Assembly: GCA_016183775.1 (NCBI GenBank)
Contig: JACPDY010000088.1
Location: 1-34,256 of the forward strand
DNA: 34,256 nucleotides
Direction of reading: 5' to 3'
DNA from: Bacteroidota bacterium
GTDB lineage: Bacteria; Bacteroidota; Bacteroidia; JABDFU01
Shown one piece after another: positions 4,567-23,275 of the stretch (positions are counted from its first letter, which is position 1; each line of letters begins with the position of its first letter). The translations under genes and the position numbers were made by a program. Under the pieces are notes generated by a model, which was not told the DNA's origin, did not search any database, and saw nothing but the letters and a program-made list of their open reading frames with translations.

Positions 4567-7500
4567 CTATGGCGCAGTAAGGTTAACATTTACACTACAG
4601 CCGTTTTTATCTTTAATATTTATTGAATAAGCTCCCGGACAAAGTTGATTTTTATACCTACTGACATATCCATCAGGCCAGGTATAAGTGTAGGGACTTG
4701 TCCCGCCTGTTGCAGTTACCATTATCCATTCTTTACAACCGCAACCGATACAGTCAGCAGTGCCTTTTGCAAATTGTCCTGCTAAAGGTAAAGCTGAAAT
4801 AATTGTAACAGAAGCAGTGGCTATACAGCTTACCGCATCAGTAACAGTAACTGTGTAGGTGCCCGCACTCAATCCCGTCGCGGTAGCACTTGATCCACCC
4901 GACGGCAACCATAAATAGGTGTAATTTGGTATCCCGCCGGCAGGTTGTGCCGTGACAATACCAGAAGAACTACAGGTTGAATTGGCCTGAGTGAGGGTAA
5001 GCGTAAGTGTCCCGATGCCACCCGAAATACCGGCAGTAAGCGTTATACTCTTGCATAAATAATTGGTAACAGTTACAGTGTAAGTACCAGCACACAAACC
5101 GGTGGCAGAATCCGTAGTATTACCATTGGTCCACAAGTATGTATATATACAAGCGGAAGGTGAAACAACATTTACCGCAGCGCTGCCGGCACATGAACTG
5201 CCGCAACCAGATTGATTTGTGCTGGTATTGGCTATAATACTGTTTGTGAATTTTATAAGATACCCATCGTCTCCTCCATTAAAAGTAGCATCAAAATAAG
5301 CTCCGCTACCCGGATCTGTTAATGGGTATGTTGCAGAATTAGAAACAGATGTCCATTCACCCGCCATAAACAAATTATTGCTGCCGTCAACGGCCAATGC
5401 CTCCCTAACATCTATACCGTTTCCACCCAAATAGGTCGCCCATAAACAGTTTCCGGAATTGTTAAAAAATACAAGTGCAATATCCCTGTTTCCCACAGGA
5501 CCATTGTGCGAATTGTCCTGGTATTCACCATCGCATGAACTTTGTACCGGCATATCGACAGAATATGTATTAAAGCTCATGTATACATTTCCACAACTAT
5601 CTATTGTTAAATTATCATAAGAAAACATCCCCTCGATTCCGGCTCCTCCATAATAAGTTGCCCATAAACGATTACCGTTGTTGTCGAACTTCAGGATAAA
5701 CGCATCGCTACTGCCTCCCAATACTCCATCAAAATAACCCGAAGGACATGTCGCACAGCATACCACGCCGTTACATACCGGAAAATCTGCGGATGCCGTA
5801 GAGCCTGTTACAAATACATTCCCGCTTCCATCGGTGTCGATCGTATAACCATAATCGTCTCCAACTCCTCCATAATAGGTCGCCCATAAACGGTTTCCAT
5901 TGTTGTCAAACTTAAGGATGAAGGCATCCCTGCCTCCGGCAGCACCCTGAGAATAGCTCAAAGTACAAGTCGCACAGCACGCCGGACCATTACAAACAGG
6001 AAAACCCGAATATCTTGTCTCTCCTGTTACAAAAATATTTCCACTGCCATCTGTTGCGATTGAATATCCAACATCTCTGTCACTTCCACCGTAATAAGTT
6101 GCCCACAAACGGTTACCGCTGTTATCGAATTTAAGAACGAATGCATCTCCAACTAATAATGATCCTCCGGCATATATACTCTGAAAGTAGCCAGGAGTAC
6201 ATGCAATGCAACATGCCGGACCGTTGCAAACAGGAAAATTGGTGGATGTTGTATTTCCGGTTATAAAAATATTTCCGCTGTTATCGGTGATTATAGAATA
6301 ACCAATGTCTCTTCCGTTCCCTCCATAATAGGTGGCCCATAAACGAATACCGTTATTGTCAAATTTAAGGATGAAAATATCGTTTACTCCCGTTAATATA
6401 CCCTGAAAGTATGTTCCTGTATTCTGAACAGGAAAATTGGCAGAACCAACCTCTCCCGTTACAAATACATTCCCGGCAGCATCTGTGGTAATGGACCAGC
6501 CTGCATCACCTCCGCTTCCCCCATAATAAGTAGCCCACAAACGGTTACCGGTGTTGCTAAATTTGAGGATGAAAACACCTGAGCCTCCCGCTAATGCCCC
6601 TTGAAAATAAGTCCCTGCTGCCTGCACCGGGAAATTAGCCGAACCTGTATATCCTGTTACAAAAACATTCCCGCCTGCATCAGTCGTTACGGATGTTGGT
6701 CCATCAAGACCGCTACCTCCGTAAAAAGTGGCCCAAACAAGCTGCGGATCTATTATTAATTGAGAGTTGTGAGTTGAAAGATCAGAATGAAGATCGAATG
6801 AAATGGAAGTTTCGTATCCATCATCACCATTCACTTTCACGGGTCGCTGATAGTTTTGAATAAACCGCGTTTTCAACTCTGCTCCGTTCAGGAAACTTAC
6901 AGGAGCGTTTTCGGCTATGTCGCCGTTGAGTGTATTGATGACTATTTCTCCACGCTCATTTATCCTGATCGGTTTTTTACTTCTGTAAAGCAGTTTTATA
7001 AGTTTATAATCGCCTCCTGGCCTTACAACAAAATCGTATTTGAACCCTTTGTCATTGGTGTTATACAATACCCAATCAATGCCCGGGTATATATTTTTGA
7101 TAGTTACTTTTTCATACTCTTTAACTCCGTATATACCTTGTGAACAATGCGGATAAAAGAAATTAAAATTAGTCGCACCCTCCCCCTCTTTTGTTATGTT
7201 CTCTTTGCTTATCCTCGCACCATATAAATTAACATCAACACGCTCCCACTCTGTCTTACTATTTTCTGCTCTTTCTTCATTTGTCACGCTGAGCGAAGTC
7301 GAAGCATCTTCCTCGCCAATTGATACCATTCCACTACTAACATCTTTTTTATCCTCTTCCTCAATTTTCAATGTTTGTATTGTTAATCCTTGTTCCGTAA
7401 TAAATAAATTTACTGCAGGAGCTTCGGCTTTATAGAGCACAAACGGAACGGGGTTTCCGTTCAGGTCCTTCATCTGCCCCTTGTTCTCTAAAAATTTTAC

Positions 7501-7620
7501 TAATTGGTTTTGCATCAATATACGAGCCCGTTGCCTGAGTTTGGCTTCTCCTCTATCATCCGCTGCTAAAAGCGAAACACTCAAAAGGGAAAAAATCAAC
7601 ACAGTTGATATTTTTGTCAT
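4567..7620 (-). CDS. Large secreted SBBP-propeller/SprB-repeat protein, paralog A
   Basis: Probably a surface or extracellular structural/adhesive protein of 1017 aa; no enzymatic motif is seen. In order: signal peptide (MTKISTVLIFSLLSVSLLAA); an N-terminal domain with FLENKGQM, NIYPGIDWVLY and FKYDFVVRPGG, as found ahead of SBBP repeats (DUF7948-like, from memory); seven SBBP repeats each starting near LWATYYGG (about 5230-6740); two SprB-type repeats (GLCAGTYTVTVTN, GLSAGTYTVTVTD); and the shared C-terminal module with CIGCGCKEW, RYKNQLCPG and KDKNGCS. There is no T9SS type A or B sorting domain. Blades 3, 4 and 5 carry a Cys-rich insert CNGxxCCxxC not found in the other paralogs. An earlier ATG exists at 7647, but the ATG at 7620 gives the cleaner signal peptide. 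B ends 29 bases upstream, so A and B are probably cotranscribed. Domain assignment is firm; function is inference. Confidence 0.88.
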   Translation of the reverse strand: MTKISTVLIFSLLSVSLLAADDRGEAKLRQRARILMQNQLVKFLENKGQMKDLNGNPVPFVLYKAEAPAVNLFITEQGLTIQTLKIEEEDKKDVSSGMVSIGEEDASTSLSVTNEERAENSKTEWERVDVNLYGARISKENITKEGEGATNFNFFYPHCSQGIYGVKEYEKVTIKNIYPGIDWVLYNTNDKGFKYDFVVRPGGDYKLIKLLYRSKKPIRINERGEIVINTLNGDIAENAPVSFLNGAELKTRFIQNYQRPVKVNGDDGYETSISFDLHSDLSTHNSQLIIDPQLVWATFYGGSGLDGPTSVTTDAGGNVFVTGYTGSANFPVQAAGTYFQGALAGGSGVFILKFSNTGNRLWATYYGGSGGDAGWSITTDAAGNVFVTGEVGSANFPVQNTGTYFQGILTGVNDIFILKFDNNGIRLWATYYGGNGRDIGYSIITDNSGNIFITGNTTSTNFPVCNGPACCIACTPGYFQSIYAGGSLLVGDAFVLKFDNSGNRLWATYYGGSDRDVGYSIATDGSGNIFVTGETRYSGFPVCNGPACCATCTLSYSQGAAGGRDAFILKFDNNGNRLWATYYGGVGDDYGYTIDTDGSGNVFVTGSTASADFPVCNGVVCCATCPSGYFDGVLGGSSDAFILKFDNNGNRLWATYYGGAGIEGMFSYDNLTIDSCGNVYMSFNTYSVDMPVQSSCDGEYQDNSHNGPVGNRDIALVFFNNSGNCLWATYLGGNGIDVREALAVDGSNNLFMAGEWTSVSNSATYPLTDPGSGAYFDATFNGGDDGYLIKFTNSIIANTSTNQSGCGSSCAGSAAVNVVSPSACIYTYLWTNGNTTDSATGLCAGTYTVTVTNYLCKSITLTAGISGGIGTLTLTLTQANSTCSSSGIVTAQPAGGIPNYTYLWLPSGGSSATATGLSAGTYTVTVTDAVSCIATASVTIISALPLAGQFAKGTADCIGCGCKEWIMVTATGGTSPYTYTWPDGYVSRYKNQLCPGAYSINIKDKNGCSVNVNLTAP
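4601..4707 (-). repeat. Near-identical tract shared with paralog C (13327-13433)
   Basis: By eye, 104 of 107 bases match 13327-13433, including a run of 59 identical bases. The tract lies inside the coding sequence of the C-terminal module. Neighbouring parts of the same modules are clearly more diverged, which points to recent recombination between A and C. Confidence 0.75.
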
Positions 7621-7649
7621 ATAAAAATTACATCTTGTCATCAGCAAAA

Positions 7650-10600
7650 TCAGGGTGTAGTAAGATTAACATTTATGCTGCATCCATTTTTATCTTTAAT
7701 ATTTATATTATATGAACCGGGACAAAGCTGATTTTTGTATCTGCTCAAATACCCATCAGGCCAGGAATAAGAGTAAGGACCTGTACCTCCCTCAGCAGTT
7801 ACAATTACCCATTCCTTACAGCCGCAACCGCCACAGTTGGCAGTACCTTTGGCAAATTGGCCCAATAACGACGGGGGTGAAATTATTGTGGTTACCGAAG
7901 TTGAGGTACAACCTTTGCTATCGGTTAAGGTAACGGTGTAATTACCCGGCGCTAATCCTGAAACCTGAGACCCGGTAAGCGGAACCCCTCCGCTCCAGCT
8001 ATAGGTATATGGCAAACTGCCACCTGCTCCTGTTACTGTTGCCGAACCGGTTCCTCCATTACAGGTTATATTGGTTGCTGTGGTTGTTGAAACAACAATA
8101 GGATTTACAATTACTAAAGCAGTCGAAGTGGACGTAGCCCCTCCTGAATCGGTTATTGTTACAGTATATGTTGTTGTTGAAGACGGACAGGGATTAATAT
8201 TTTGTATGGTCCAACCATTGCTCCATGAATAAGAGTATGGAACCGTACCACCTGTTCCGCTGGAAGTTACAGAAGCGCAACTTCCCTGACAAACCGAACT
8301 ACCAACAGCAGTTACAACAGGACCATTACAATTTATTACTGTTATAGTACTTGTTTGAGTGGTTGAACAACCTCCGCTGGAAACTGTATGTGAAACACTA
8401 TACGTCCCGGCTGTTAAAAATGTATAGGTAAAATTGGAAGTTGTTCCACTTACATTTGTCGGAGTTATGGGGGAAATTACCCAGCTATATGTTCCTGTTG
8501 AGCCAGTATTCGTAAAGATTACTGCCATTCCTACACAGGTTTGTGGATATGTAAACGTTGCTGATACAGGATTTACTCCTGTAATATTGAATGTTTTTGT
8601 TTGGGTACATCCATTGCCATCTGTAACTGTTACAGTGTATCCTCCGGCCACAAGACCTGAGGCAATCGTTCCTGTCTGACCACTACTCCAGCTAAATGTA
8701 AAAGGCTGTGTTCCTATGCTCGCTATTACTGAAGCGCTGCCTGTAGAATTACAACCATTGTTGGTGCTTGTGGTATTTATCACGGGTCCTGCAGGAAGCG
8801 TTATACTTACTGTTTGGGTAGCAGTGCAGCCGGTTTTATCAGTTATCGTTAATGTATAATTACCCGCAGCTAATCCTGAAGCGTTTTGGGCAGTTTGTCC
8901 GTTATTCCAGGTATAGGTATAAGGTGAAGCGCCTCCGGTGACTGTCGCCCAAGCTGTGCTATTTCCATTGCTACTACAGGTTGCCGGGTTTGTATTGGTA
9001 ATAGTTAACGCTAATCCGGTTACGGGACCAGTAAGTGTATAATAAATGGTATCTCTGTTACATGCAGCATCCGTTACTTCCACCCAATAATTACCTGCAC
9101 ATAATCCTATACTGTTTGTTGTGCTTATTGAATTAATAAGCTGACTCCCATTACTCCACACATAATTATACGGCGGAGTGCCGCAATTGATCTGAATTGT
9201 AGCGTTGCCACAGGTGCATCCGGTTGCATTTACCTGGGTCTGGATATAGCTTGCCGTATCAGGCTTGAGTTTTATAAAATAAATATCATCCGCTGAAGTG
9301 TAGTTATTATTAAAAGCACCTCCACCCGGATTAGCCATAGCGTTAGACGAGGCTCCCATCCACTCTCCTGTAATAAATAAATTTCTGTTATTATCCAATG
9401 CAAGGTTTGCCCGAAAATCCTGAGATCCGCCTAAAGTGCCGAAGTATGTTGAATATATCATTGCACCGGTGGCAGCGAATTCCACTAATACCAGGTCCTG
9501 CGGACCAAGCCTTGCATTGTTAAAAAAAGTGCCACATGTATTTACAGTAGGAAAATCATTGGACCCCGTCCACCCCCCAAGATAAACAACCCCGCAAAAA
9601 TCAGTAACCAGATTTTTTGTTCTGTATCCAAAATTAGCAGTATAATGAGAAACATCACTTGCTGAGCCACCAATAAAAGTTGACCAGATCATTGAGCAGG
9701 AGCTATTGAATTTACATAAAAACAAGTCGTATCCATTGGTGTTTCCATTACTAAGCACACTGTTATTATATGCTCCCGAAAGATTCTGAGTAGGAAAATT
9801 CGAAGAAACGGTTTTTCCCGTTACATACAAATTACCAAATACATCTTCTTCGATATCCGTAGCCTCGTCAAAAATATTTCCTCCCAAATAGGTCGACCAT
9901 TGCAATGCCCCTGTGTTGTTGAACTTAAGTACAAAAACATCATTATTACCATTTGAAACAGGGTCATTATATGCTCCCCCGAGGTTCTGCAAAGGAAAAT
10001 CAGTGGAGTTCGTATATCCTGTTACAAACAGATTATTCCCTGCTCCTACCCACAATGCATTTCCTACTTCGTCCCCCAGACTTCCTCCGAAAAGTGTTGA
10101 CCACTGCAATGCACACGAGGAATTGAATTTTAAAATAAAAATGTCTTGCCCTCCGCCAATAGCATTATCATTATAGGCTCCGGCAAGATTTTGGGTCGGA
10201 AAATTTGCCGAACTTGTGAAACCTGTTACGTAAATACTATTTGTTGCATCGGTTTTTATTGACCATCCCATATCCATTCCCGTACCTCCGAAATAGCTGG
10301 CCCATAACCGAACACCAGCCGGAGAAAATTTTAACATCACCACGTCCGAGCTTCCGCCATTTGTATTATCATTATATGCTCCCGCAAGATTTTGTGTTGG
10401 AAAATCTAAAGAAGGAGTAACTCCTGTTATATAAATATTATTAGCCACATCACTCGCAATACTCTGCAAATTCTCATTCGTATCAGAACCCCCATAAAAA
10501 GTGCACCAAAGAAGAACTCCTGCATTGTTAAATTTTAATATCAAGCCATCGGTCGAGCTACCCAGAGTATTATCATAATATACGCCTCCTCCGGGATTCA

Positions 10601-11630
10601 AAGTGGGGAAATTTGTTGAAACTACATAGCCACAAGCATATACATTATTATTTCCGTCTACCACAATATCCATTGTTCCTTCGTTGCTGATACTGCCTCC
10701 CGTACCCCCGATATACGTACCCCAAAGAAGCTGGGGATCTATCACCAGAGTTGACCTTAAGCTATTATAAGCTTCAATTTTAAATGAAACTTCAGCAAAA
10801 TGGAGATCTGTTATAGTTGTTAAAAATGTAGTTTGAATTTCTGTATCAGACTCTTTTAAATAAGAATAGGGCGCATTTTCAGTAAGGGTTCCGAGTGGCG
10901 TATTTATTTCGAGACTGCCATCCTGTTTCTGAACAAGGGGTTTATCGCTTTCGTAACACAATTTTATTTGTGATGGATCGGCACCCGCATGTACAAGAAA
11001 ATCATATTTAAACCCATTGGCATTACTGTTATATAAAACCCAATCTATTCCCGGATAAATGTTCCGAACTGTGATCTTCGAATATTGCTTTACATCATAG
11101 ATTCCATCAGGACAGTGAGAGAAGAAATAATTATAATGCGCCGAACCTTCTCCTTCCATGATAATATTTTCCTTTTTTATTGTTGTCCCTTTTAAACGCA
11201 TATTTATCCATGCCATCTCTATTTTGTTCTTCTCTATTTCAATTTTCTGTTTACTCGAAGTATATTTTTCTCCGATTTCATTGTGCCCATCTTTTTCATC
11301 AATTTTTGCAAATACATATGTAAGGCCCGTTTCGGTTATATATACATCGATACCTGGTGCGGAGGCCTTGAACAAAACAAAAGGGACAGGAATGTTATCT
11401 GTATTTACCATTTGTCCCTTGTTTTCAAAAAAATGAACCGGCGAATCCTGTATATGTTGCAAAATTTGATCTTCACTAACCGGAAGGTCCCTTGATGCAA
11501 AAGCAGGTGATGTAAGAAATATAACTGAGAGGAATAGTGAATATATTACGATCCTGAATAATGTACTCCCCGGAGCCGCACTTATGGTTCTGTGTTGTAG
11601 CATGGCATTTTTCGATGACGGATGTTTCAT
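7650..11630 (-). CDS. Large secreted SBBP-propeller/SprB-repeat protein, paralog B
   Basis: Paralog of A, 1326 aa from the first ATG in frame (11630); the frame continues to a TTG at 11666, and an ATG at 11603 is also possible. The signal peptide has core IVIYSLFLSVIFLTSPAFA with probable cleavage after AFA. The N-terminal domain carries FFENKGQMV, NIYPGIDWVLY and FKYDFLVHAG. Seven SBBP repeats follow (LLWGTYIGG, LLWCTFYGG, LWASYFGG, LQWSTLFGG, LQWSTYLGG, MIWSTFIGG, MIYSTYFGT). Then come several SprB repeats, a PKD-like unit (SGTTSNFTYTFLTAGTY) also present in D, and two Ig units that C and D share. The protein ends in the C-terminal module (CGGCGCKEW, RYKNQLCPG, KDKNGCS). No T9SS sorting domain is visible. 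A divergent intergenic region separates it from a broken helical-repeat gene. Likely a surface adhesin or filament component; this is inferred from architecture only. Confidence 0.88.
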   Translation of the reverse strand: MKHPSSKNAMLQHRTISAAPGSTLFRIVIYSLFLSVIFLTSPAFASRDLPVSEDQILQHIQDSPVHFFENKGQMVNTDNIPVPFVLFKASAPGIDVYITETGLTYVFAKIDEKDGHNEIGEKYTSSKQKIEIEKNKIEMAWINMRLKGTTIKKENIIMEGEGSAHYNYFFSHCPDGIYDVKQYSKITVRNIYPGIDWVLYNSNANGFKYDFLVHAGADPSQIKLCYESDKPLVQKQDGSLEINTPLGTLTENAPYSYLKESDTEIQTTFLTTITDLHFAEVSFKIEAYNSLRSTLVIDPQLLWGTYIGGTGGSISNEGTMDIVVDGNNNVYACGYVVSTNFPTLNPGGGVYYDNTLGSSTDGLILKFNNAGVLLWCTFYGGSDTNENLQSIASDVANNIYITGVTPSLDFPTQNLAGAYNDNTNGGSSDVVMLKFSPAGVRLWASYFGGTGMDMGWSIKTDATNSIYVTGFTSSANFPTQNLAGAYNDNAIGGGQDIFILKFNSSCALQWSTLFGGSLGDEVGNALWVGAGNNLFVTGYTNSTDFPLQNLGGAYNDPVSNGNNDVFVLKFNNTGALQWSTYLGGNIFDEATDIEEDVFGNLYVTGKTVSSNFPTQNLSGAYNNSVLSNGNTNGYDLFLCKFNSSCSMIWSTFIGGSASDVSHYTANFGYRTKNLVTDFCGVVYLGGWTGSNDFPTVNTCGTFFNNARLGPQDLVLVEFAATGAMIYSTYFGTLGGSQDFRANLALDNNRNLFITGEWMGASSNAMANPGGGAFNNNYTSADDIYFIKLKPDTASYIQTQVNATGCTCGNATIQINCGTPPYNYVWSNGSQLINSISTTNSIGLCAGNYWVEVTDAACNRDTIYYTLTGPVTGLALTITNTNPATCSSNGNSTAWATVTGGASPYTYTWNNGQTAQNASGLAAGNYTLTITDKTGCTATQTVSITLPAGPVINTTSTNNGCNSTGSASVIASIGTQPFTFSWSSGQTGTIASGLVAGGYTVTVTDGNGCTQTKTFNITGVNPVSATFTYPQTCVGMAVIFTNTGSTGTYSWVISPITPTNVSGTTSNFTYTFLTAGTYSVSHTVSSGGCSTTQTSTITVINCNGPVVTAVGSSVCQGSCASVTSSGTGGTVPYSYSWSNGWTIQNINPCPSSTTTYTVTITDSGGATSTSTALVIVNPIVVSTTTATNITCNGGTGSATVTGAGGSLPYTYSWSGGVPLTGSQVSGLAPGNYTVTLTDSKGCTSTSVTTIISPPSLLGQFAKGTANCGGCGCKEWVIVTAEGGTGPYSYSWPDGYLSRYKNQLCPGSYNINIKDKNGCSINVNLTTP

Positions 11631-11683
11631 TTCAATATTCCCTGCTTTTATTCCTCTTCCTGTCAAATGAACTTAAGAATGTT

Positions 11684-11715: not shown

Positions 11716-11837
11716 CCAAATAAATTTATAAGTTATAAGTCTAAGGTTATGTAATGATCATTAAAAAAAGAATTTTGTGAGAAAGAACTTCATAGAATGA
11801 TTCACTTTAGCTATTTTTATACAAAAAAAATGTAAAA

Positions 11838-13284
11838 ATGAAAACTCCATCAGACGATCTTTTCATTCTGATAAAATCACTTAGTTCGGCAGAAAAGCGT
11901 TATTTTAAGATTTTTTCGACGATTCATTCAGGTAAATCATTTAACAAAAAATATATTATCCTATTCGATGCTATTGACCGATTAAAACAATATGATGAAA
12001 AAAAATTAAAGACAAGACTGAAAGACGATACATTAAAAAGCAATCTGAAGATGTTCAAAAGTTATGTTTCAGAAGTAATTCTAAACAGCCTTGAAAAGTA
12101 TCACCAAAACTCAACAAAGCAACTACAGGTTAACCATCTGTTTGCGCAGGCCCACATATTATGTTCCAAACGACTTTTTCCGCTTTGTGAAAAAGTTCTT
12201 AAAAAGGCTGAGTCCATAGCTGAGTCGGAAGAATTATTCCCGGAGCTTATCAATATCCTATTTTTAAAAATTGAAATTGCAAGAGCGACCGAGCAATATG
12301 AAAAAATATTTAGCACAAATGGTCATAAACAGCGGGTGAGTTCTTTTTCCAATCTTCTGCATAATTATACAGAATATCTTTTTCTAGGATTGAATGCTGA
12401 ACAGGTCCTGAAAAAAAATTTTCTTACCCGAAAAAATACAGATCGGATCATGCATAAGCAAATATTAGCCAATACCTTATTGCTGAATTCCACAAAGGCC
12501 AAAAGCGCCACAGCCAAAAGAATGTACTTCAACCTGAAATCCCGGTTTCTTATGATAATGGGGCAAGATCAAAAGGCGTATGATGTTATTTTGGAGTGTA
12601 TTAGTTTTTACAAAAGCAAAAACACTTTAGCGAATCAAGATCTATCGTTTTATTTTATTACACTATATAATAAAGCTATAATTGAGTTTATCATCGGGCA
12701 GGCAAAGACTGCTTATGAAACCATACATTGCTTTCAGGAAATGTTAGAAAGATATATGCATCAATTATCTGCAAATGCTCTCGTAAATGGAAATGATCAA
12801 TTATATACATTAAAAATCGGAAGCTGCATAAGCACGGGGGATTTTAAAGCAGCAGAAAAACATCTTGATGAATTTGAGCACGCTTAAATATCTGAATAAA
12901 ATCCTTCTTTTACCAAATACGGGTATCCGGAATGATATTATTGTACAATCAAAATTTTTGATCATGATAGTGCAATTTGAATTAAATGATCTAGATGCTT
13001 TACCTTATACAATACGCTCAACATATCGCTCCTTGCTTAAAGGAGAGCGGTTATATAAATTTGAGAATGCAATATTGCAATTCCTGAGAAAGGATTTACC
13101 AAAAGCCGACCATAAATCTGAACTTATACATGCGTTTAAGAAGTTATCCGGCATAATAAGAGAAATCAGCAAAGATCCCTTTGAAAAAAATGCAATGGGA
13201 GAATTTGATTTTATTTCCTGGCTAGAAAGTAAAATTGAGAACAGACCATTTGCTGAGATCATAAGAAATAAAGTAAAGCAATGA
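11838..13284 (+). pseudogene. Helical-repeat (TPR-like) protein gene, broken by internal deletion and frameshift
   Basis: Two overlapping frames (11838-12887 and about 12865-13284) together match the intact paralog at 25512-27017. The first begins with the family's N-terminal motif (LSSAEKRYFKIFST against LNKSEKRYFKIDAG). The second ends with its C-terminal motif (EFDFISWLESKIENRPFAEI against DFDILSWINSKIEGRPFAEM). Aligning them, the residues after KAAEKHLDEFE correspond to the intact copy's KLVPEIEKGL, while STLKYLNKIL corresponds to SALKWLNYIL. About 25-30 residues, one helical hairpin, are therefore missing exactly where the frame changes (about 12870-12890). One deletion not divisible by three explains both defects. 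The family is recognisable as tandem amphipathic helices but has no function known to me. The TTG/ATG at 12865-12870 is unlikely to be a genuine start. The gene ends 8 bases before the stop of convergent paralog C. Confidence 0.75.
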
Positions 13285-13292
13285 GAAAATAG

Positions 13293-16200
13293 TCAGGGCG
13301 CGGTAAGATTAATATTCACACTGCACCCGTTTTTATCTTTAATATTTATTGAATAAGCTCCCGGACAAAGTTGATTTTTATACCTGCTGACATATCCATC
13401 AGACCAGGTATAAGTGTAGGGGCTTGTCCCGCCAGCGCCTGTCACCATTAACCACTCTTTGCATCCACAACCTGCGCAACTGGCGGTCCCTTTGGTAAAT
13501 TGTCCAGCTAATGGCGGGGGTGAGATTATTGCAGCTGTGGAAATTCCCGTACAACCCTTACTGTCCGTTATTGTTACTGTATAATTTCCTGCCGTCAAAC
13601 CTGTTATAGTTTGTGCAGTCTGGTTGTTACTCCAGCTATAGCTGTAAGGCAAACTACCGCCACTCCCCATCGTAGAAACAGATCCTGTACCGCCGTTACA
13701 TGAAGCATTTGTTACCGTGGAAGAAACATTAACAGATGGATTAATTATTATAGTTGCTGTTGACGTGGATGTGCTTCCACCTGAGTCGGTTACTTTTACA
13801 GTATAAGTTGTTGTTATTGGCGGGCACGTATTTATATTTTGAGTTGTAGCGCCTGTACTCCATGAATAAGTGTATGGATTGGTGCCGCCACTTGGATTGG
13901 ATATTATGTTGGCACAGCCGCCAGCACAGATAGTACTACCGGTAGCCGAAAACACAAGCGTACCGCAATTTGGGTTAATTGTTATGCTTTTAGTCATGCT
14001 GCACCCATTTATACCCTCAACAGTAACAGTATATGTTTTTGATGCAGAACCGCTTATAAATAATTTCGGATTAGAAATTCCTGAATTATTTAAGCCGGCA
14101 GAAGGACTCCATGAATATACAGGGTTCACTTTACAGAATCCAAGTTGTATATTAGGTGAAGTATTTGTTGGCCCGGTTGCAAATGGAATTAAACATCCTG
14201 AGACTGAATTGTTTGTAACTGTATTGTAATATGTATCATTTTGCAGCACTGAAACATCGTCAGCAATATCTGAAGTCGTTTTATCCCAGCATACTTCAAC
14301 CACTATATTTGATTGTCCATCCCAATGAAATGATTGGGTAAAATTATGAGTGTTCCATCCTGTAATGCTTGAATAAGTGGTGGGTCCAAACACAGTTGAC
14401 AAACCTGTAAGCCAAGATTTATAAGGGTTTGTGGCATCCGGTAACTTCACAGCTTTTGTGCAACCAATCTTTATTGTAAAATTTGTGTATGGTGTAGAAC
14501 TGTTTTTTTTTCCTACATAAAAAGCCAAAGATTGTATACTTCCCGCTTGCAGACCCGCACTTTTCAGGCTATAGGCATCATATATAACCTGCATCCTGTA
14601 ATCGGTTCCCGTATTATAAGGTGACATATGGCCATAGTATGGATTACTGAAATTTGGATTAACAACAGGCCCAAGTGAAATTTTTTGAGGAGAATTTGCG
14701 CAAGTTGTTACTGGCAATGTACCACAGGAAAATGAAACAAAATCTGTCGTTCCAGACAAAACTGCGTTTAGCTGAACGCTATCGCCCGGACAAATTGTTG
14801 CAGGAATATTTACATCAACGACTGATCTCGCGCCTATTGCTATACTTTTAGTTATTGAACATCCATTTGAACCTGTAACGGTGACCTGATAGCTACCTGG
14901 CGCAAGATTTTGAGCAGATTGTTTATTTTGTGCAGGGACAGTATTCCAACTATAATAAAATGGCCCTGTTCCGTTAGCGGGTATTATTGTAATACGGCCA
15001 TCAGTTCCACCACTACAAGAAGGTTCAGTAATCATAATACCTAAAGACGGTATAGCATTATTCATATTAACCGAAGCTGTTTTTAAGCATCCTGAAATAT
15101 CTCTAATCGTAATAGTATATGTGCCACTTCCCAGATTGGATGCTGTTGTTGAAGTCTGTCCTGAAGGATTGTTCCACAAATAGGTATATGGCGACTTCCC
15201 TCCTGTTACTGTTACTGAAGCAGAACCATTAACGGCACATGAAGTTGTAAAAGATAAAGAAAGAGAATCGGGATTTGACAACATAATCGTTGCGGTATTT
15301 TTACAACCATTGCCGTCCTGAGCTGTTACTGTGTAAAGTCCCGACGATAAACCTGATATATTATTTGCTGTACTTCCAGTTGACCATTGGTATGAATAAA
15401 CACCATTTCCTCCTGTAGTATTTACAGATACAGATCCATCACTACTTCCATAACAGCTGATATCTGTTTTAGCAGCAACAATATTCAGCGCACAGCAGGA
15501 TCCTGTTACTGTTAATGCCTTAATTAAAGTATCTCCTGGACAGATTGCAATCAGCTTTACATTATAAGTTCCTGCGTTCGCATATGTATGAGAGGGATTT
15601 CTGCTACTGGAAAAATTGCCATCCCCAAAATCCCATAGCCAGGTTTTAACCGAATCCAGGATTCCACAGTGTTCTCCTGTAGTAGTATTATTGAAGTTTA
15701 CAGGAGTGTTGCATACAGCATTACCTGCATTAAAGTCCACAATCATATTTTGAGTAAAACGGCTAATAACAGGCTGATCAGAGCCTCCATTAAGATTAAG
15801 CTTGGCAGTTTGGAAAGCTCCGGCAGTTACAGGGAAGTCGGAGGAGTGAGTTGTGTTCGTCATTATCAGGTCTTCTTTACAATCGTATTTAACCAATGTA
15901 ATCTGAGTTGTAGCAAAATCGGCATCTACTCCACTTCCGCCAATCATACCGGAAAACAACAATTTCTTTCCGCTGTCATTCAATTTATACAAAGCAATGC
16001 CGCCGCCTTTATTATTATTATAACTGCATCCATTAAGTGGTACACTGGATGGATAAGCAACCGAAGAATACGCTTCATCTCGATCATTAATCTGTATTGA
16101 CATCCCATATCCGGCACCAATAAAAGTGGAGTATTTCAAAGTTGTTCCCTGCGGATTAAGACGCACAATGAATGGGTTTGAGGGACCGCTTGTTACCGGT

Positions 16201-18128
16201 CCATTATAAGTAGGATCATAAACTCCGGCAGTTGTCGGAAAACTACTCGAACTTGTATTCCCAATAACAAATGCATCACCCGCGGAGTTAACAGAAATAT
16301 CATTTCCCAGATCTCCGTATGTTCCGCCAAGATAGGTTGAGTATTTTAAATCTGCGTTACCATTACCGTTCATACTAAGCTTTAATACCAACGCATCGGA
16401 TTGATTAACTCCTGGCAAACTATTATAGGAGGGGTCAAAGCAACCTGGTGAAACCGGAAAGTCAGTTGCACTTGTCCATCCGGCGACATAAACGTTGTCC
16501 ATAGGATCTAATGCATTGCGGAAACCAATTTCGCTGGAAGTAACATTCATATTTCCAGCGCGATCTTGGTCTGTCGACCCTCCAATAAATGTAGAATAAA
16601 GCAATGCACTCCCGTCAGAACTTAATTTACTTACAAAAATATCAGATAAGCCACCATTAAATGATGTATCATAAGCTCCGGGAGTTACCGGGAAATTAGA
16701 ACTTAAAGTAGAACCGGTAACAAAAGCTTCTCCTTTATTGTTCACCGCCACTCCACATCCCAATCCGGCATAACCAAGAAATGTTGAATAAACTAATCCG
16801 GTACCAGCGGCATTAAGCTTAAGAACAAATGGTCCATAAGGTCCGTTCAATCCTGAGAAGGATGAATTCCCGGCAAGTGAAAAAGGCCCATTGTAGGTTG
16901 GATCGTATGCACCGGCTGTAGTAGGGAAATTGGGAGATTCCGCATCTCCTGTAATATAAGCGCAACCAAAATCATCAACTGCAATTCCAACACCCTTGTC
17001 TCTGCCGTTTCCTCCGATATATGTTCCATAAACTATATCTGTTCCATCAGGCTTTAATTTAAATACGAATACATCATTGGCACCATTCCATGTTCCGTCG
17101 TAATTACCCGGTTTGGTTGGAAAACCACCACCTTCATACCAACCGGTTACATACGCGTTACCCTGTTTGTCAGACGCAATATCAAAAATATAACCCCAAA
17201 TAAAAGTGATATTTGCAGAAGCGGCTGCCCCAACATAAGTGGAATAATACAACACAACCGGATCAATTATCAGATCATATGCGGGGTTAATATTCGTTGA
17301 ACTATAAAATCCTATGGTAGTATCATTTAATAAGTAATAACGGATATCAACCTCTGTTTTTATTCCATTTATTACCTGGTAAGAATATGGAGCTAAATCT
17401 GCTGTGGTACCCCATTCGGTCTTAACTTCAAGGATACCATCCCTTTTTATTCTGATTTTTTTTACTCCTGAAAACGCCATTTTGATCTGCTCCATTCTTC
17501 CACCCGGCTTAATAATATAATCGTACTCAATTTTAGTTCCGGAAGAATAATACCTCAGATCAATTTTATCATAAAGTTCGTGGTATTGGATCTGTTCATA
17601 ATCGCGTGCATTTAATACATAACGGGAAGGGTCGTCACCTATAAGATAATTGATATTGCTCATATGCTCCCCTTCGGATGTACAGCTAACATTTTTATTG
17701 CAGCCAATAAAATTCATGTTCCAAACAAGGTAATCATGTCTATCACCACCCGTCTTTCCAGACGGTGAAAGTACACTTGTGCTTTCCGATTCATTTTCTC
17801 TGGCACTTAAATAACTAATTCCATCCTTCATAAAATACATGTGAATCCCGGATGAGGCTGATTCAAATAGAATATTATCGCTCCACTGCCCCCTATTTTT
17901 ACGGAAATTTACCGGCAAGCTTTGAAGGTTATTTTCGATTTTAGTTTTCCTCGCCTGATCCATGGCTCCTAAACTACTATGGATACTCTCCTGCGCTGAA
18001 ATAGTATGATAAAATGAACCCGATATAATTAAAAACAAAGTAGCATAGACAAAAGACAACCCTTGCAGCAAAAAATCTATTTCTACTTTGAGTAATTTAT
18101 TAAATTCAAATCTTATTATATTTTTCAT
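13293..18128 (-). CDS. Large secreted SBBP-propeller/PKD/SprB protein, paralog C
   Basis: The largest paralog, 1611 aa from the ATG at 18128 (a TTG at 18134 is also open). The signal peptide ends near FYHTISAQES. The N-terminal domain has the variant motif FRKNRGQW and KIEYDYIIKPGGR. Seven SBBP repeats follow, of the YSTYxGG form with FPTTAGAYDPTYNG-like loops. Next comes a PKD domain (WLWDFGDG, about 15510-15740), then three SprB repeats (GLSSGLYTVTAQD, NLGSGTYTITIRD, NLAPGSYQVTVTG). A ~250-residue segment follows (about 14110-14840) with YRMQVIYDAYSLKSAG, YTNFTIKIGCT and HWDGQSNIVVEVCWD, a module I know only from other Bacteroidota surface proteins. Two Ig units and the shared C-terminal module (CAGCGCKEW, RYKNQLCPG, KDKNGCS) close it. 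Its 3' end is mosaic: one tract is nearly identical to A, another to D. No T9SS sorting domain is seen. Confidence 0.88.
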   Translation of the reverse strand: MKNIIRFEFNKLLKVEIDFLLQGLSFVYATLFLIISGSFYHTISAQESIHSSLGAMDQARKTKIENNLQSLPVNFRKNRGQWSDNILFESASSGIHMYFMKDGISYLSARENESESTSVLSPSGKTGGDRHDYLVWNMNFIGCNKNVSCTSEGEHMSNINYLIGDDPSRYVLNARDYEQIQYHELYDKIDLRYYSSGTKIEYDYIIKPGGRMEQIKMAFSGVKKIRIKRDGILEVKTEWGTTADLAPYSYQVINGIKTEVDIRYYLLNDTTIGFYSSTNINPAYDLIIDPVVLYYSTYVGAAASANITFIWGYIFDIASDKQGNAYVTGWYEGGGFPTKPGNYDGTWNGANDVFVFKLKPDGTDIVYGTYIGGNGRDKGVGIAVDDFGCAYITGDAESPNFPTTAGAYDPTYNGPFSLAGNSSFSGLNGPYGPFVLKLNAAGTGLVYSTFLGYAGLGCGVAVNNKGEAFVTGSTLSSNFPVTPGAYDTSFNGGLSDIFVSKLSSDGSALLYSTFIGGSTDQDRAGNMNVTSSEIGFRNALDPMDNVYVAGWTSATDFPVSPGCFDPSYNSLPGVNQSDALVLKLSMNGNGNADLKYSTYLGGTYGDLGNDISVNSAGDAFVIGNTSSSSFPTTAGVYDPTYNGPVTSGPSNPFIVRLNPQGTTLKYSTFIGAGYGMSIQINDRDEAYSSVAYPSSVPLNGCSYNNNKGGGIALYKLNDSGKKLLFSGMIGGSGVDADFATTQITLVKYDCKEDLIMTNTTHSSDFPVTAGAFQTAKLNLNGGSDQPVISRFTQNMIVDFNAGNAVCNTPVNFNNTTTGEHCGILDSVKTWLWDFGDGNFSSSRNPSHTYANAGTYNVKLIAICPGDTLIKALTVTGSCCALNIVAAKTDISCYGSSDGSVSVNTTGGNGVYSYQWSTGSTANNISGLSSGLYTVTAQDGNGCKNTATIMLSNPDSLSLSFTTSCAVNGSASVTVTGGKSPYTYLWNNPSGQTSTTASNLGSGTYTITIRDISGCLKTASVNMNNAIPSLGIMITEPSCSGGTDGRITIIPANGTGPFYYSWNTVPAQNKQSAQNLAPGSYQVTVTGSNGCSITKSIAIGARSVVDVNIPATICPGDSVQLNAVLSGTTDFVSFSCGTLPVTTCANSPQKISLGPVVNPNFSNPYYGHMSPYNTGTDYRMQVIYDAYSLKSAGLQAGSIQSLAFYVGKKNSSTPYTNFTIKIGCTKAVKLPDATNPYKSWLTGLSTVFGPTTYSSITGWNTHNFTQSFHWDGQSNIVVEVCWDKTTSDIADDVSVLQNDTYYNTVTNNSVSGCLIPFATGPTNTSPNIQLGFCKVNPVYSWSPSAGLNNSGISNPKLFISGSASKTYTVTVEGINGCSMTKSITINPNCGTLVFSATGSTICAGGCANIISNPSGGTNPYTYSWSTGATTQNINTCPPITTTYTVKVTDSGGSTSTSTATIIINPSVNVSSTVTNASCNGGTGSVSTMGSGGSLPYSYSWSNNQTAQTITGLTAGNYTVTITDSKGCTGISTAAIISPPPLAGQFTKGTASCAGCGCKEWLMVTGAGGTSPYTYTWSDGYVSRYKNQLCPGAYSINIKDKNGCSVNINLTAP
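13327..13433 (-). repeat. Near-identical tract shared with paralog A (4601-4707)
   Basis: Partner of the tract in A: three mismatches in 107 bases by eye, within the C-terminal module of C. Confidence 0.75.
13558..13603 (-). repeat. 46-base identical tract shared with paralog D (18996-19041)
   Basis: All 46 bases are identical to 18996-19041. The tract lies in the Ig unit just before the C-terminal module, coding for the GLTAGNYTVTITDS region. C therefore resembles A in its last module and D in the one before it. Confidence 0.75.
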
Positions 18129-18157
18129 GATCAACGAAGTTTAAATCAATTAATATT

Positions 18158-18328
18158 TTACCAAAGCCGGAAAACATCTTCAAATAAGTCAAAATTCCGA
18201 TAGCTGTTAAATTCGTGATCAATCTTTCCTGATGCTTTCAACGCCTTTTTTCCTTTGACAATCTTACTTGTCTGAGTTGTTTTTGTTTTAATTTTTATTC
18301 TTCCCTTTATTCGCTTATTATTTTTCAT
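18158..18328 (-). CDS. Possible small basic protein (56 aa), unknown
   Basis: An open frame from ATG at 18328 to TAA encodes a strongly basic N-terminal half (MKNNKRIKGRIKIKTKTTQT) followed by a mixed aromatic/acidic tail ending NFDLFEDVFRLW. It lies 29 bases upstream of the start of paralog C, same strand, so the two could be cotranscribed. GGGAG (18331-18335) precedes the ATG but with only 2 bases between, closer than optimal. I recognise no family. The non-random composition and position favour a real gene, but it could equally be a leader ORF or chance. Confidence 0.4.
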   Translation of the reverse strand: MKNNKRIKGRIKIKTKTTQTSKIVKGKKALKASGKIDHEFNSYRNFDLFEDVFRLW

Positions 18329-18355
18329 ATCTCCCATATTTATTTCAGAACTATC

Positions 18356-18726
18356 TCAATCCGTAATCATCACCTTCTTCATTATAAAATTATTTTCCGT
18401 TGAAAGCTTCAACAGGTACAACCCGCTTTCCTGCCCACTTATACTGCGAACGGGATAAATTTCCGCATTCGTATATCATCAGAGTCGGAAGTCAGAAGTT
18501 AGAAGACTTCCGGCTTCGGACTCCCGACTTCCAGCTTTTCAAAATGCGACAAATTACACCGTTTCATGTATAAATCTATTTCTTCGATGTATTTCACCTG
18601 TGCTCCTGTTTCAATATGTTTTTTTATATGAGCTGTCCCGCAAGGTTTCGTATCTCTATTCTCACATATTATTCTAAAACACGCTACAATACAGTATCTT
18701 TGAGCATCAATGTTTACCAAAAACAA
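18356..18726 (-). pseudogene. Relic of a T9SS type A C-terminal sorting domain
   Basis: Read on the - strand directly after the D stop codon, this region aligns with the sorting domain of the esterase at 23276-25213. The first part encodes VRIEIRNLAGQLI (esterase: VEIEVHNLAGQLI), then one base is missing in an A-run, and the shifted frame continues KKHIETGAQVKYIEEIDLY (esterase: KKLLETGAQMKYVEAIDLS). An inverted-repeat element (18445-18567) then interrupts it. After the element the end of the domain resumes as ISGQESGLYLLKLSTENN and MKKVMITD, with TGA at 18356-18358 (esterase: LSGFENGLYLMKL and MKKILINH). It has no start of its own and carries stops in frame, so it is non-functional. It is most simply read as the former C-terminus of D or of a predecessor gene. 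Confidence 0.75.
18445..18567. repeat. MITE-like imperfect inverted repeat (~123 bp) inserted in the sorting-domain relic
   Basis: The left arm (18445-18490, starting TGCGAACGGGATAAATTT) is the approximate reverse complement of the right arm (18524-18567, ending ACACCGTTTCAT). Pairing is interrupted by several mismatches. The centre contains nested GGAAGTC/GACTTCC hairpins. It encodes nothing and separates two halves of a sorting domain that are contiguous in the esterase, so it behaves like an inserted element. The junctions are TA-rich, but I cannot define a target duplication with certainty. Confidence 0.6.
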
Positions 18727-18730
18727 CTAC

Positions 18731-21700
18731 TCACGGTGCAGTTAAATTAACATTTAAACTACAGCCATTTTTATCTTTAATATTTATGGTATAGTTTCCA
18801 GGACAAAGTTGATTCTTGTACCTGTTTGTGTATCCGTCGGGCCAAGAGTATGTATACGGGCTTGTTCCGCCTGTTGCACTAACCATTAGCCACTCTTTAC
18901 AGCCACAACCTGCGCAACTGGCAGTACCCTTGATAAATTGTCCGATTAATGCCGGCGGCGAAATCAGAACGGCAGTAGAAGTTCCTGTACAACCATTACT
19001 GTCCGTTATTGTTACTGTATAATTTCCTGCCGTCAAACCTGAAACTGTTGAACCTGATCCGCCTGAGGTGGACCAAGTGTAAACGTAAGGCGAACTACCT
19101 CCGGCTCCTGCAGCTGTGATCGAACCGTTACCTCCACTACAATTTATAGTTGATACAGTTGTTATTACAGTAATTGCCGGATTTATAGTCACTACCGCGG
19201 AAGAAGTGGATGTTTTGCCTCCTGTATCTTTTATTGTTACCGTATACATTGTGGTTGACACCGGACATGTATTTATGTTTTGTGTAGTTGCTCCGTTACT
19301 CCATGTATAAGTATAAGGTGATGTGCCACCGGTTGGAACAGATGTAACAGTAGCACAACTACCGGGACAAACAGAACTGCCTGTGGTAGTAATTGTGGGG
19401 CCGGAACAATTTATAACAGTGATATTTACTAATTTACTATCGTTACAGCTACCATTACCAATATTAAGATTCACGCCATATGTACCCGCAGACAGGAATG
19501 TATACGAGAAATTACTTGTTGTGCCAGAAACATTAATTGGGCTAATGAACCAGTTATATGTTATTCCACTTCCTGGTTGTGTACCAATGTTAGTAAATGT
19601 TACCAAAGAACCCAAACATGCCAGAGAAGGAACTGTAAAATCGGAAAAGACCGGTTTATTTATTTGTAACTGGAATGTTCGGGTTGTAATACACCCGGTA
19701 GCATCTGAAACAGATACGGTATAGTACCCAGCCGCAACATTTACTATACTACTGTTTGTACTCCCATTACTCCAATTATAAGTATATGGAAGAATACCTC
19801 CATGAGGTGTAACAGATGCCTGTGCCTGTACACTGCAACTTCCATCAAATGAAGATGTGTCAAGTGGAAGAGGTAGTTTCTGTACATTAACCGCGCCCGT
19901 TGCAGTGCATCCGTTAGCATCGTTAATAGTAACAACATAGGTACCCGCATTTAACCCTGAAACACTTACGGTAGTTTTCCCATTACTCCAAAGATAATTA
20001 TAAGGTGAAGTGCCATTTACCGCAGAGGCTGTTGCTGTTGCTGCATCTGGAGGACAAGTCCATTTTGGAAGTGAGAATCCAACACCCAATAGTGGAGACT
20101 GTGTAACAACAACTGTTGAAATTGAAACACAAGCTCCATCACTTACCGTTAAAGTATACGTACCAGGAGCATTAACTGAAGGGGTAAAAGTATTGGCTCC
20201 ACTAACAATTCCGGGACCTGTCCAGGATGGTATTGCCCCAATAGTAGACGATGATCCATTTAAAATTTTTACTGGATTTGTGCAGGTGATTGTCTGCATT
20301 AGCCCCGCGTTCACATTCGGCTTCGATCCCGTATTTGTTATGTTAATAGTAAAAGATGTACTACAGCCGTTAGACCCGGTAATAACATATATGTGAGTAC
20401 CCACTGAAACAGAAGAAACAGTATAGGGTGTGTTTACGTTAGATGCTATTGTAATAACCCCTTCAGAAATTGTATAGACAGGGTTACCATTTGTTACACT
20501 GGTAATAACAAACGAACCTGTGGACGAAGAACATGAGGCATTAACAATTGTAATATTAGGTACAAAAGTCGCCGCGGGACCAGCAATAGTGAAATTTCCG
20601 TATAATGTATCACATGTCATAGTTACGGTATAGGTATAAGTTCCGGGACAAAGATTATTTACAGTATTCGAGGATGAAGAAGTATTGATTGTTTGCATAC
20701 CATTATTATAGTAATAACTAAATGGGGGTATTTTGCAGCCTGCTACCAAATTTAATGTAGCTGACCCATTACAAGCGCAGGAAACTGCAGAGCTTGTTGT
20801 AACACTTACTGTTTGTGTTGATGCCACTGATAATCCGCAACTTTTTATGTTAAATTGTGAAATTGTTGCATCTCCTTCAATCCCCACCACCCCTCCACAA
20901 GTAGTTTGGAAAGCGCCAGGCGTTACAGGGTATGTACAGGCAGATGTTCCGGCCAAATATGCATAACAACCAAAAACGCTAATACAGCCTCCCCCACCAT
21001 GTCCACTCTCATTATTAGGACTTGATGAGTTTCCAGTACCAATAAAACCCGAACATAAAAGGTTACCGGCCTGATCGAGAGTAGTAATAAAATTATCTTC
21101 AGTACCAGCAAATACTGTTTGATAAGCACAAGAAGTAACAGGAAAATTATGACTGTATGTATCTCCTCCAACAACAATATTATTATTCACATCACAATCA
21201 ACGCCCATTGGTTCTTCGTCATATGGACTGCCACTACCTGTACCTCCAAGTAAAGTTCCCCATTTGCGAACACCGTTCGCATCAAATTTTGCTACAAATC
21301 CGTCAGCATACCCTCCTCCAAAAGCTGTTTGAAACGCTCCTGCGGTGGCAAAAAGACCAATCCCTCCTGGGCCACAGGTGCTTCCTACGATAATAATATC
21401 TCCTGCACCATCTACAGCTATTGCAGCCCCAAAATCAACCTGATTTCCTCCATAATAAGTTGCCCAAAGCCGATTTCCACCAGGTAAAAATTTTGCCAGG
21501 AAGGCATCAGTATTAATCACATTACTTATCGAACCTCCTCCAAATATAAATTGATGGCACCCAGCTGTCACAGGAAAATTTCCCTGTGTAGCACCGGTAA
21601 TATAAATTTCATTAGTCACTTGGTCTACCGCAATTCCATTTCCTTTATCGTTATTTACATTGGGAGAATTGTTTCCTCCAAAATACGTACCCCAGATACG

Positions 21701-23185
21701 TTGTCCATTAGGTTGAAATTTAACTATGAAGACATTTATTTTTGAAGTTGCTGATCCTCCTAGTGCCGACTGAAATGCCCCAGCAGTACTAATACCTGCT
21801 GCAGAACTTGTTTCACCAACCCCAACAATATTATTTTGGTTATCGGTGCGCACATCGCGAATTACACCATTATAAAATGTAGAAAATTGGCGCATTCCTA
21901 AATTATTTAATTTAACAATGAAACCTATACCGTAAAAAGGTTGATGTACAACGTTTAGTCCAACATTCCCTATAGGGAATCCAGCAACAGCATTACCACA
22001 AAATATAACATTATTTGAAGCATCGGAACAGATACCTAGTCCCTGGCTAGCACCATAATACGTGGCAAAATTCCGTATATTTCCATTTGATTGAAAACTA
22101 ACAACAAACGCGTCGGAGTATGAAGCAGCGGAAAAAGCTGTTTGAAATACACCGACTGTAACCGGGAAATTAATCGATGATGTTCTACCGGTGGTTATTA
22201 TATTACCCAGTTTATCATTTGCATTAGCCACGGCCACATCGGCTCCGCTCCCGCCATAATATGTTATCCATGGGTCAATGATAAGCGGATAATTCCTATT
22301 ATAATTTGATATGTTAAATCCTATTCGTGTGTTTCCATTTTCTTCAGATAAGCGTTTATATGTTGATCTTATTGCAATTTCCTTTCCGTCAATATTTTGA
22401 TAAACTTTTGGAATCCATTCAAGTACTACACCCATTTCTGTTTTAACTTGTATTTTATCTTCATTCATTAAAATATTATCCATCCCGGAATAAGTCAATT
22501 TTATATCTCCTGGACGGCCGCCAGGATTAACAATTATATCGTATTTCAATCCGTGCTCTTTTCCTCCATAGTACACAATATCAATTCCTTTGTAAACATT
22601 TTTGTAAGTTATCTTATTATATTGAGTTATCCCTGTAATTCCCTCAGGACAATATGCCTTGTAAAAATTTACTAACCCCGGAATTTTATCGTTATTTATT
22701 GTTTGAATGTTTTCATTACATCCCGAAAAATTAACATCTACCCTGTATCCTTTCAGGGTAGAATTTTGCATGAAATTATCCTTATAAAGTTGTTCATCGG
22801 CTTCGTCTCTTATCAAGCCTTTGCTAATCGCTTCATCGGCGTTTTCCTCCGCATTTCGAATTAAATCAGCCATATTAGTTATCACATAGCTGATACCTGT
22901 TTTACGTATGTAAACATCAGTTCCGCCACCGTCACCTTTATATAAAACATCAGGCCGAAGTTGTTTGTTCATATCAATAATCTGTCCTTTGTTTTCGGTA
23001 AAGCACATGCCGTTCCCCATTAAAGACGGTGCAATGGCTGAAGGGAAGACCGATCCGGGTTTGGGCGCTTCATAACCAAAATTTTCTTGCGCTTTAACTA
23101 CCTGAAGAGTTAAGGTTGAAATAAATAGCAAAAAGGGGAAAACAGCAGGTAAAGGCAAATATAATATATGTGAAAATTTTCTCAT
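18731..23185 (-). CDS. Large secreted SBBP-propeller/SprB-repeat protein, paralog D
   Basis: Paralog of A-C, 1484 aa from the ATG at 23185, which gives a good signal peptide (MRKFSHILYLPLPAVFPFLL, then about VVKAQENFG); an ATG at 23209 is also in frame. The N-terminal domain has FTENKGQI, NVYKGIDIVYYGG and LKYDIIVNPGGR. Seven SBBP repeats follow, more diverged than in A (TYYGGSGAD, ATYYGASQG, STFYNGVIRD, GTYFGGNN, ATYYGGNQVD, GTLLGGTG, SGFIGTGN). A long chain of Ig/SprB units comes next, including a PKD-like unit (SGTTSNFSYTFLSAGTY) shared with B. The protein ends with the two shared Ig units and the C-terminal module (CAGCGCKEW, RYKNQLCPG, KDKNGCS). The stop codon lies at the point where the T9SS sorting-domain relic begins. 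The esterase gene ends 66 bases before the alternative start (23209), so D may be its downstream operon partner. Confidence 0.88.
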   Translation of the reverse strand: MRKFSHILYLPLPAVFPFLLFISTLTLQVVKAQENFGYEAPKPGSVFPSAIAPSLMGNGMCFTENKGQIIDMNKQLRPDVLYKGDGGGTDVYIRKTGISYVITNMADLIRNAEENADEAISKGLIRDEADEQLYKDNFMQNSTLKGYRVDVNFSGCNENIQTINNDKIPGLVNFYKAYCPEGITGITQYNKITYKNVYKGIDIVYYGGKEHGLKYDIIVNPGGRPGDIKLTYSGMDNILMNEDKIQVKTEMGVVLEWIPKVYQNIDGKEIAIRSTYKRLSEENGNTRIGFNISNYNRNYPLIIDPWITYYGGSGADVAVANANDKLGNIITTGRTSSINFPVTVGVFQTAFSAASYSDAFVVSFQSNGNIRNFATYYGASQGLGICSDASNNVIFCGNAVAGFPIGNVGLNVVHQPFYGIGFIVKLNNLGMRQFSTFYNGVIRDVRTDNQNNIVGVGETSSAAGISTAGAFQSALGGSATSKINVFIVKFQPNGQRIWGTYFGGNNSPNVNNDKGNGIAVDQVTNEIYITGATQGNFPVTAGCHQFIFGGGSISNVINTDAFLAKFLPGGNRLWATYYGGNQVDFGAAIAVDGAGDIIIVGSTCGPGGIGLFATAGAFQTAFGGGYADGFVAKFDANGVRKWGTLLGGTGSGSPYDEEPMGVDCDVNNNIVVGGDTYSHNFPVTSCAYQTVFAGTEDNFITTLDQAGNLLCSGFIGTGNSSSPNNESGHGGGGCISVFGCYAYLAGTSACTYPVTPGAFQTTCGGVVGIEGDATISQFNIKSCGLSVASTQTVSVTTSSAVSCACNGSATLNLVAGCKIPPFSYYYNNGMQTINTSSSSNTVNNLCPGTYTYTVTMTCDTLYGNFTIAGPAATFVPNITIVNASCSSSTGSFVITSVTNGNPVYTISEGVITIASNVNTPYTVSSVSVGTHIYVITGSNGCSTSFTINITNTGSKPNVNAGLMQTITCTNPVKILNGSSSTIGAIPSWTGPGIVSGANTFTPSVNAPGTYTLTVSDGACVSISTVVVTQSPLLGVGFSLPKWTCPPDAATATASAVNGTSPYNYLWSNGKTTVSVSGLNAGTYVVTINDANGCTATGAVNVQKLPLPLDTSSFDGSCSVQAQASVTPHGGILPYTYNWSNGSTNSSIVNVAAGYYTVSVSDATGCITTRTFQLQINKPVFSDFTVPSLACLGSLVTFTNIGTQPGSGITYNWFISPINVSGTTSNFSYTFLSAGTYGVNLNIGNGSCNDSKLVNITVINCSGPTITTTGSSVCPGSCATVTSVPTGGTSPYTYTWSNGATTQNINTCPVSTTMYTVTIKDTGGKTSTSSAVVTINPAITVITTVSTINCSGGNGSITAAGAGGSSPYVYTWSTSGGSGSTVSGLTAGNYTVTITDSNGCTGTSTAVLISPPALIGQFIKGTASCAGCGCKEWLMVSATGGTSPYTYSWPDGYTNRYKNQLCPGNYTINIKDKNGCSLNVNLTAP
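18996..19041 (-). repeat. 46-base identical tract shared with paralog C (13558-13603)
   Basis: Partner of the C tract; identical over all 46 bases by eye, in the Ig unit preceding the C-terminal module. Confidence 0.75.
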
Positions 23186-23275
23186 AACAATACTAATTAA
23201 CTTACACATTCTTTTTAGCTGAAGAAAAGTACAAAAAAAGATTTTTGATAAATACCGTATTAACCCGCCTCTGAT

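Follow-up and report, generated by a model that had tools for sequence, protein, structure and literature searches.

The window, that is, the whole 34,256-nucleotide stretch of Bacteroidota DNA analysed, carries four surface-type genes (A–D) on the minus strand. All four encode DUF7948, SBBP and SprB repeats and end in the same 77-residue C-terminal module, here termed the tail. They were found together with an esterase-like gene and three copies of a TPR-like gene family, R:

4567–7647, minus strand: protein A, with a signal-peptide-like N-terminus, DUF7948, SBBP repeats, SprB repeats and tail (ORF and Pfam matches)
4570–4800, minus strand: 77-aa C-terminal tail of protein A, up to the stop codon (alignment; own-genome profile match, E 4.9e-52)
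7650–11666, minus strand: protein B, with DUF7948, SBBP, PKD, SprB repeats and tail; heads the A–B pair (ORF and Pfam)
7653–7883, minus strand: 77-aa C-terminal tail of protein B (alignment; own-genome profile match, E 1.3e-50)
11811–13284, plus strand: gene R (TPR-like), frame broken near 12.88 kb; divergent to B, convergent to C (profile matches, TPR superhelix model)
13293–18134, minus strand: protein C, with DUF7948, SBBP, PKD, SprB repeats and tail (ORF and Pfam)
13296–13526, minus strand: 77-aa C-terminal tail of protein C (alignment; own-genome profile match, E 1.5e-51)
18731–23209, minus strand: protein D, with DUF7948, SBBP, PKD, SprB repeats and tail (ORF and Pfam)
18734–18964, minus strand: 77-aa C-terminal tail of protein D (alignment; own-genome profile match, E 1.4e-51)
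23276–25213, minus strand: esterase-like protein carrying a genuine T9SS type A sorting domain (PF18962, E 2.5e-12; TIGR04183, E 4.3e-10)
25491–27017, plus strand: gene R (TPR-like), intact, ORF from 25512; divergent to the esterase-D-C group (ORF and profile matches)
32891–34120, minus strand: third R-family gene, without the first ~115 model positions (covers 116–523; profile matches)

The esterase-like gene is the upstream neighbour of D on the same strand and provided a positive control for the type A search. Its true type A domain shows that the window's genome encodes T9SS cargo beside the tail proteins. Four successive genes at 27039–30644 (minus strand) resemble FKBP-type peptidyl-prolyl isomerase paralogs, as judged from sequence motifs. 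These adjoin the surface-protein cluster and could encode periplasmic folding helpers.

Alignment of the four 77-residue tails bore out the sequence-only reading of a common C-terminal module at the stop codon of A–D, including its five conserved cysteines. Residues C17, C20, C22, C54 and C68 and most other columns are common to all four. In a gapless comparison the last 72 residues of A–D are 75–89% identical, against 26–42% for the preceding 72. The remainder of the proteins is accordingly far more divergent, as had been claimed, with similarity of 50–60% detectable in some pairs over 200–480 residues further upstream. Across the family, all 143 aligned 77-residue tails retain the same cysteines as well as W25, Y37, W41, D64 and P77. 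Median identity between random pairs of members is 71% in the tail, dropping stepwise to 45%, 33% and 24% in the three 70-residue blocks that precede it. The tail ends in AP, not in a basic residue, and all type A and type B motifs are absent.

Tail pairs gave a median pS of 0.73, with dS ~2.6, dN ~0.18 and a ratio of ~0.06. Since synonymous sites are saturated and the amino acids kept, purifying selection acting at the protein level is what keeps the tail constant, and both gene conversion and recent copying were ruled out as the cause. These values bear directly on an alternative in which the tail is simply the inherited end of one fast-duplicating family, similar through recent duplication or gene conversion and of no specific role. 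Such an origin would fit the massive paralog expansion (at least 139 tails, often tandem, with 73 same-strand neighbour pairs) and the restriction to one genus. It does not fit saturated synonymous sites beside conserved amino acids, upstream blocks of the same genes that are down to 24–45% identity, or the occurrence of the tail on different passengers. We consider it very improbable, its strong form being already refuted by the dN/dS result. Shared ancestry does explain part of the pattern, because one architecture holds most of the passengers.

Copy number and position were determined from fetched stretches and with a profile built from the four tails, which matched the window's genome ~140 times; the procedure may slightly undercount. 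The window's 4.5-Mb genome contains at least 139 tails, A–D being four of these. The tail is terminal: of 156 deduplicated copies (139 from the window's genome and 17 from fetched stretches of one congener), 155 run precisely up to the stop codon, as do 10/10 copies of a third species. Matches are thus at the extreme C-terminus, as anticipated. The opposite outcome, mainly internal matches with a normal T9SS domain alongside, did not occur; the internal profile matches proved to be weak SprB repeats and were discarded as instances of the module. The 119 own-genome tail ORFs not cut by a stretch end, a few frame-broken fragments included, have a median length of 1093 residues. Together they span 388 kb, or ~8.5% of the 4.54-Mb genome.

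In six members (L062:1061–5192, L050:498–4746, L052:498–3912, L048:6968–11252, L093:8221–10923 and L110:1498–4495) the reading frame shifts within the repeats, placing the tail in a different frame from the N-terminal domain. Assembly error, pseudogenes or phase variation may be responsible. Orphan or partial tails with no attached protein, apparently decayed, were also seen (L084:5589–5828, L065:12938–13147, L088:7314–7529 and G000:C50:20985–21213).

The distribution of the tail is narrow. At E ≤ 1e-14 it was detected in three of the six genomes of the genus (146, 52 and 18 matches) and in none of the other three; the genus is known from MAGs only, and the five congener genomes are incomplete (56–85%). 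The sampled family and order consist of this one genus. Among 395 sampled genomes of the phylum, the sole full match was the window's own. In a scan of ~85,000 named genomes just two MAGs gave full matches, JAEUTS01 (MAG-335) and JADLGT01 (SJ452). Their contigs match those of the congeners G004 and G005; the remaining matches of the scan were weak and SprB-like (28–49% identity). Among the genomes searched the tail is confined to three species of a single genus. The proposed search of Bacteroidota proteomes upheld a real, multicopy module, but a widespread Bacteroidota domain is ruled out by these counts (one of 395 phylum genomes and two other MAGs of the genus).

DUF7948 proteins are present in all six genomes of the genus, which permitted comparison of their endings. 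The tail-less congeners G001 and G002 gave 16 and 42 DUF7948 matches, respectively. Intact DUF7948/SBBP proteins read in tail-less congeners terminate in a type B sorting domain of the T9SS, with one type A case. Within the window's own genome, the few DUF7948 proteins without a tail likewise have sorting-domain endings. Tail and sorting domain exclude one another, with no DUF7948 protein carrying both. They have also been repeatedly exchanged: the tail/sorting-domain label requires 14 changes on a FastTree phylogeny of 141 DUF7948 domains, many of whose branches are weak, and at least eight of these changes are forced by well-supported branches. Two paralogs from the same genome, L146 and L079, are 45% identical over 918 residues, beyond which L146 has a type B C-terminal domain (CTD) and L079 one SprB repeat plus the tail.

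Several passengers bear the tail, namely DUF7948-SBBP proteins, a Kelch propeller, PKD arrays and several uncharacterised signal-peptide proteins, with either an SprB-type or a PKD-type linker preceding it. The expectation that it follows signal-peptide proteins was supported by a crude test, positive in 73 of 108 tail proteins. A sorting, anchoring or polymerisation module had been suggested. Terminal position, alternation with type B on the same N-terminal architecture and unrelated passengers lend partial support to a module of this kind, which may serve any of the three functions.

That A–D lack a T9SS sorting domain held, with no type A or B match at their C-termini. Type A models (PF18962/TIGR04183) gave no match over the curated cut-off in A–D or in 62 tails, one member reaching E 0.14. 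Type B models (PF13585/TIGR04131) gave none in the same set, and type B domains are present elsewhere in the genome. NCBIfam likewise yielded no match of the tails to a type C CTD (ChiA, cl41395), in a scanned library that may lack a type C model. No described sorting family was matched in either the Pfam or NCBIfam scans, and nothing relevant was found in the literature on the tail module or on DUF7948.

A close parallel is the type B domain (PF13585/TIGR04131, CHU_C, gliding motility-associated C-terminal domain). Both occupy the C-terminal position of the same DUF7948/SBBP/SprB proteins, both are about 75–100 residues long and both have adhesin-like cargo. In contrast, the tail shows no sequence similarity to type B and lacks the FSPNGDG, YDRWG and KGNVTLLR motifs, while five invariant cysteines, the AP ending and the missing linked PorP/SprF gene are features of its own. 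Its median pairwise identity of 71% exceeds the 36–55% of type B CTDs on the same family. Type A domains (PF18962/TIGR04183) resemble it in length (~75 residues), C-terminal position on secreted proteins and Ig-like beta-sandwich, but the tail has neither a profile match (one member at E 0.14) nor type A motifs. Type C (ChiA, cl41395; PMC10202324) offers a precedent for a third T9SS signal class used by few proteins. As a C-terminal secretion/anchoring domain the tail would stand outside types A and B, and membership of type C found no support in the NCBIfam scan.

An AlphaFold2 model of the tail predicts a six-strand Ig-like domain (mean pLDDT 86). Foldseek searches with this model gave generic Ig/PKD matches only, none with an E-value below 0.001, and no T9SS CTD was among the top 50 matches. 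Of the fold comparison proposed with T9SS CTDs and SprB repeats, the Ig-like fold was recovered and a confident CTD match was not.

A clearer pointer to its origin came from the Pfam SprB repeat PF13573, which 61 of 62 tails match weakly (best E 6.5e-7). The protein A tail scores 22.9 bits, under the curated cut-off of 28 bits, and the tail falls below the cut-off wherever a score is listed. Given these matches, the tail is best interpreted as descending from an SprB repeat that moved into terminal position. The two share a PYxYxW, CPGxY and DxNGC framework. The tail differs by its C-x2-C-x-C-K-[EQ]-W and RYKNQLCPG elements, by being strictly terminal and by far greater conservation than the internal repeats. 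An SprB-type ancestor probably gained the C-x2-C-x-C-K motif. The suggestion of a specialised terminal Ig unit held constant by function thus survives as regards origin.

An alternative reading takes the tail as a terminal adhesive or cross-linking Ig unit, acting by disulfide polymerisation or on a common ligand, with export by another secretion signal and secondary loss of the CTD. Descent from an SprB repeat (the 61/62 weak PF13573 matches), an odd number of invariant cysteines and a position behind adhesin-type SprB/PKD arrays in most proteins would all be natural for such a unit. Its difficulty is that the tail replaces the CTD, with no protein carrying both, and does so repeatedly. A binding unit, moreover, need not end at the stop codon, yet 155 of 156 copies do. 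We rate this possibility as rather unlikely, though worth keeping in view.

The genus encodes T9SS machinery. PorU is full length in G000, G004, G001 and G002, and split or partial in G005 and G003. PorV-family and PorP/SprF-family proteins and many type A and B cargo proteins were also found. Tail-bearing genomes contain PorU, PorV and both CTD types, matching the expectation that the tail occurs in T9SS-positive genomes. No PorP/SprF gene lies beside tail genes when TIGR03519 match positions are compared with tail positions in G000. Orphan type B substrates exist, and a missing adjacent PorP/SprF is therefore non-decisive.

A tail-specific PorV or PorP/SprF shuttle was rejected as a candidate, no such gene being linked to the tail genes. 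A PorV-like gene at G000:C5:33.1–34.0 kb is syntenic in G004 but was discarded as a tail-specific candidate, since its neighbours are purE and a gene for a helix-hairpin-helix barrel protein. The corresponding segments of these two tail-bearing genomes (G000:C5:31.1–34.0 kb, L266:3095–5999; G004:C56:1–1840, L267) encode this weak PorV-family protein and the helix-hairpin-helix barrel protein. The PorV-family gene was unseen at the same score in the tail-less congeners, themselves incomplete genomes. Type A CTDs are known to use PorV and type B CTDs cognate PorP/SprF shuttles, with type C described for ChiA (PMC10202324, PMC12618676); a cognate PorP/SprF gene immediately downstream is a type B criterion (PMC12618676).

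Tail proteins that are not T9SS-exported at all, being periplasmic or reaching the surface by a route that recognises the cysteine motif, would account for the absence of both a known T9SS CTD motif and a linked shuttle gene. The same architectures, however, carry type A or B CTDs and are T9SS cargo in sister species, and we hold this explanation to be improbable.

Gene R is co-expanded with the tail proteins, with 94 (window's genome), 42 and 14 copies in the three tail-bearing genomes versus 5, 8 and 0 in the others. Its orientation to adjacent surface-protein genes is either divergent (72 cases) or convergent (44), with no same-strand case. It belongs to no Pfam family. Its model (mean pLDDT 87) is a TPR superhelix similar to many proteins, Rap/NprR-type regulators among them. 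About one in four of the Bacteroidota sampled has homologs. These lie among leucine/isoleucine biosynthesis genes, or are transcribed divergently from them or from type A cargo; in G001 and G002 homologs lie beside operons with DUF7948 genes. Because R homologs elsewhere in the Bacteroidota flank type A cargo and leucine-biosynthesis genes, a tail-specific partner role was ruled out. No DNA motif common to R and surface operons was found. We infer that R is a putative local regulator of secreted-protein operons and not a tail-specific factor. In L238, L239, L241, L242, L244 and L248 an R homolog keeps a conserved place, either divergent from leuA (2-isopropylmalate synthase) or flanked by ilv and leu genes, making it an uncharacterised gene of the leu/ilv cluster in sampled Bacteroidota.

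On balance we favour, with some confidence, the reading of the tail as a surface-targeting and/or anchoring module that, on a large set of adhesin-like proteins within one genus, came to occupy the position otherwise filled by the T9SS sorting domain. Tail proteins would leave the cytoplasm by Sec signal peptides and then pass the outer membrane via the T9SS translocon. The folded tail would then be bound by a shuttle or anchor common to all family members, and that shared partner could be why the tail is constant as the exposed part diversifies. With an odd number of cysteines at least one thiol would remain free, potentially for a covalent disulfide link. In F. johnsoniae, SprF and PorG are tethered to the gliding track by disulfide links (PMC12635249), and by analogy a cysteine-based anchor for the tail is plausible.

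Several observations count against targeting. Confinement to a single genus is unusual for a secretion signal. The tail also lacks type A and B motifs, ends in AP, has no linked PorP/SprF or PorV-like gene and gives no CTD fold match. A bolder version is tentative and, in our view, doubtful: a fourth T9SS signal class derived from an SprB Ig repeat, whose invariant C-x2-C-x-C-K motif is recognised by an outer-membrane partner of its own, with disulfide anchoring of ~140 alternative surface proteins at one docking site.

The described T9SS C-terminal signals fall into three sequence classes, and the tail, if this were true, would be a fourth, drawn from a repeat within the cargo itself. T9SS signals could then arise from ordinary Ig repeats and displace older ones. 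Annotation by recognised sorting domains would overlook all tail proteins as T9SS cargo. One common ending would explain how a single genome deploys ~140 different giant surface proteins.
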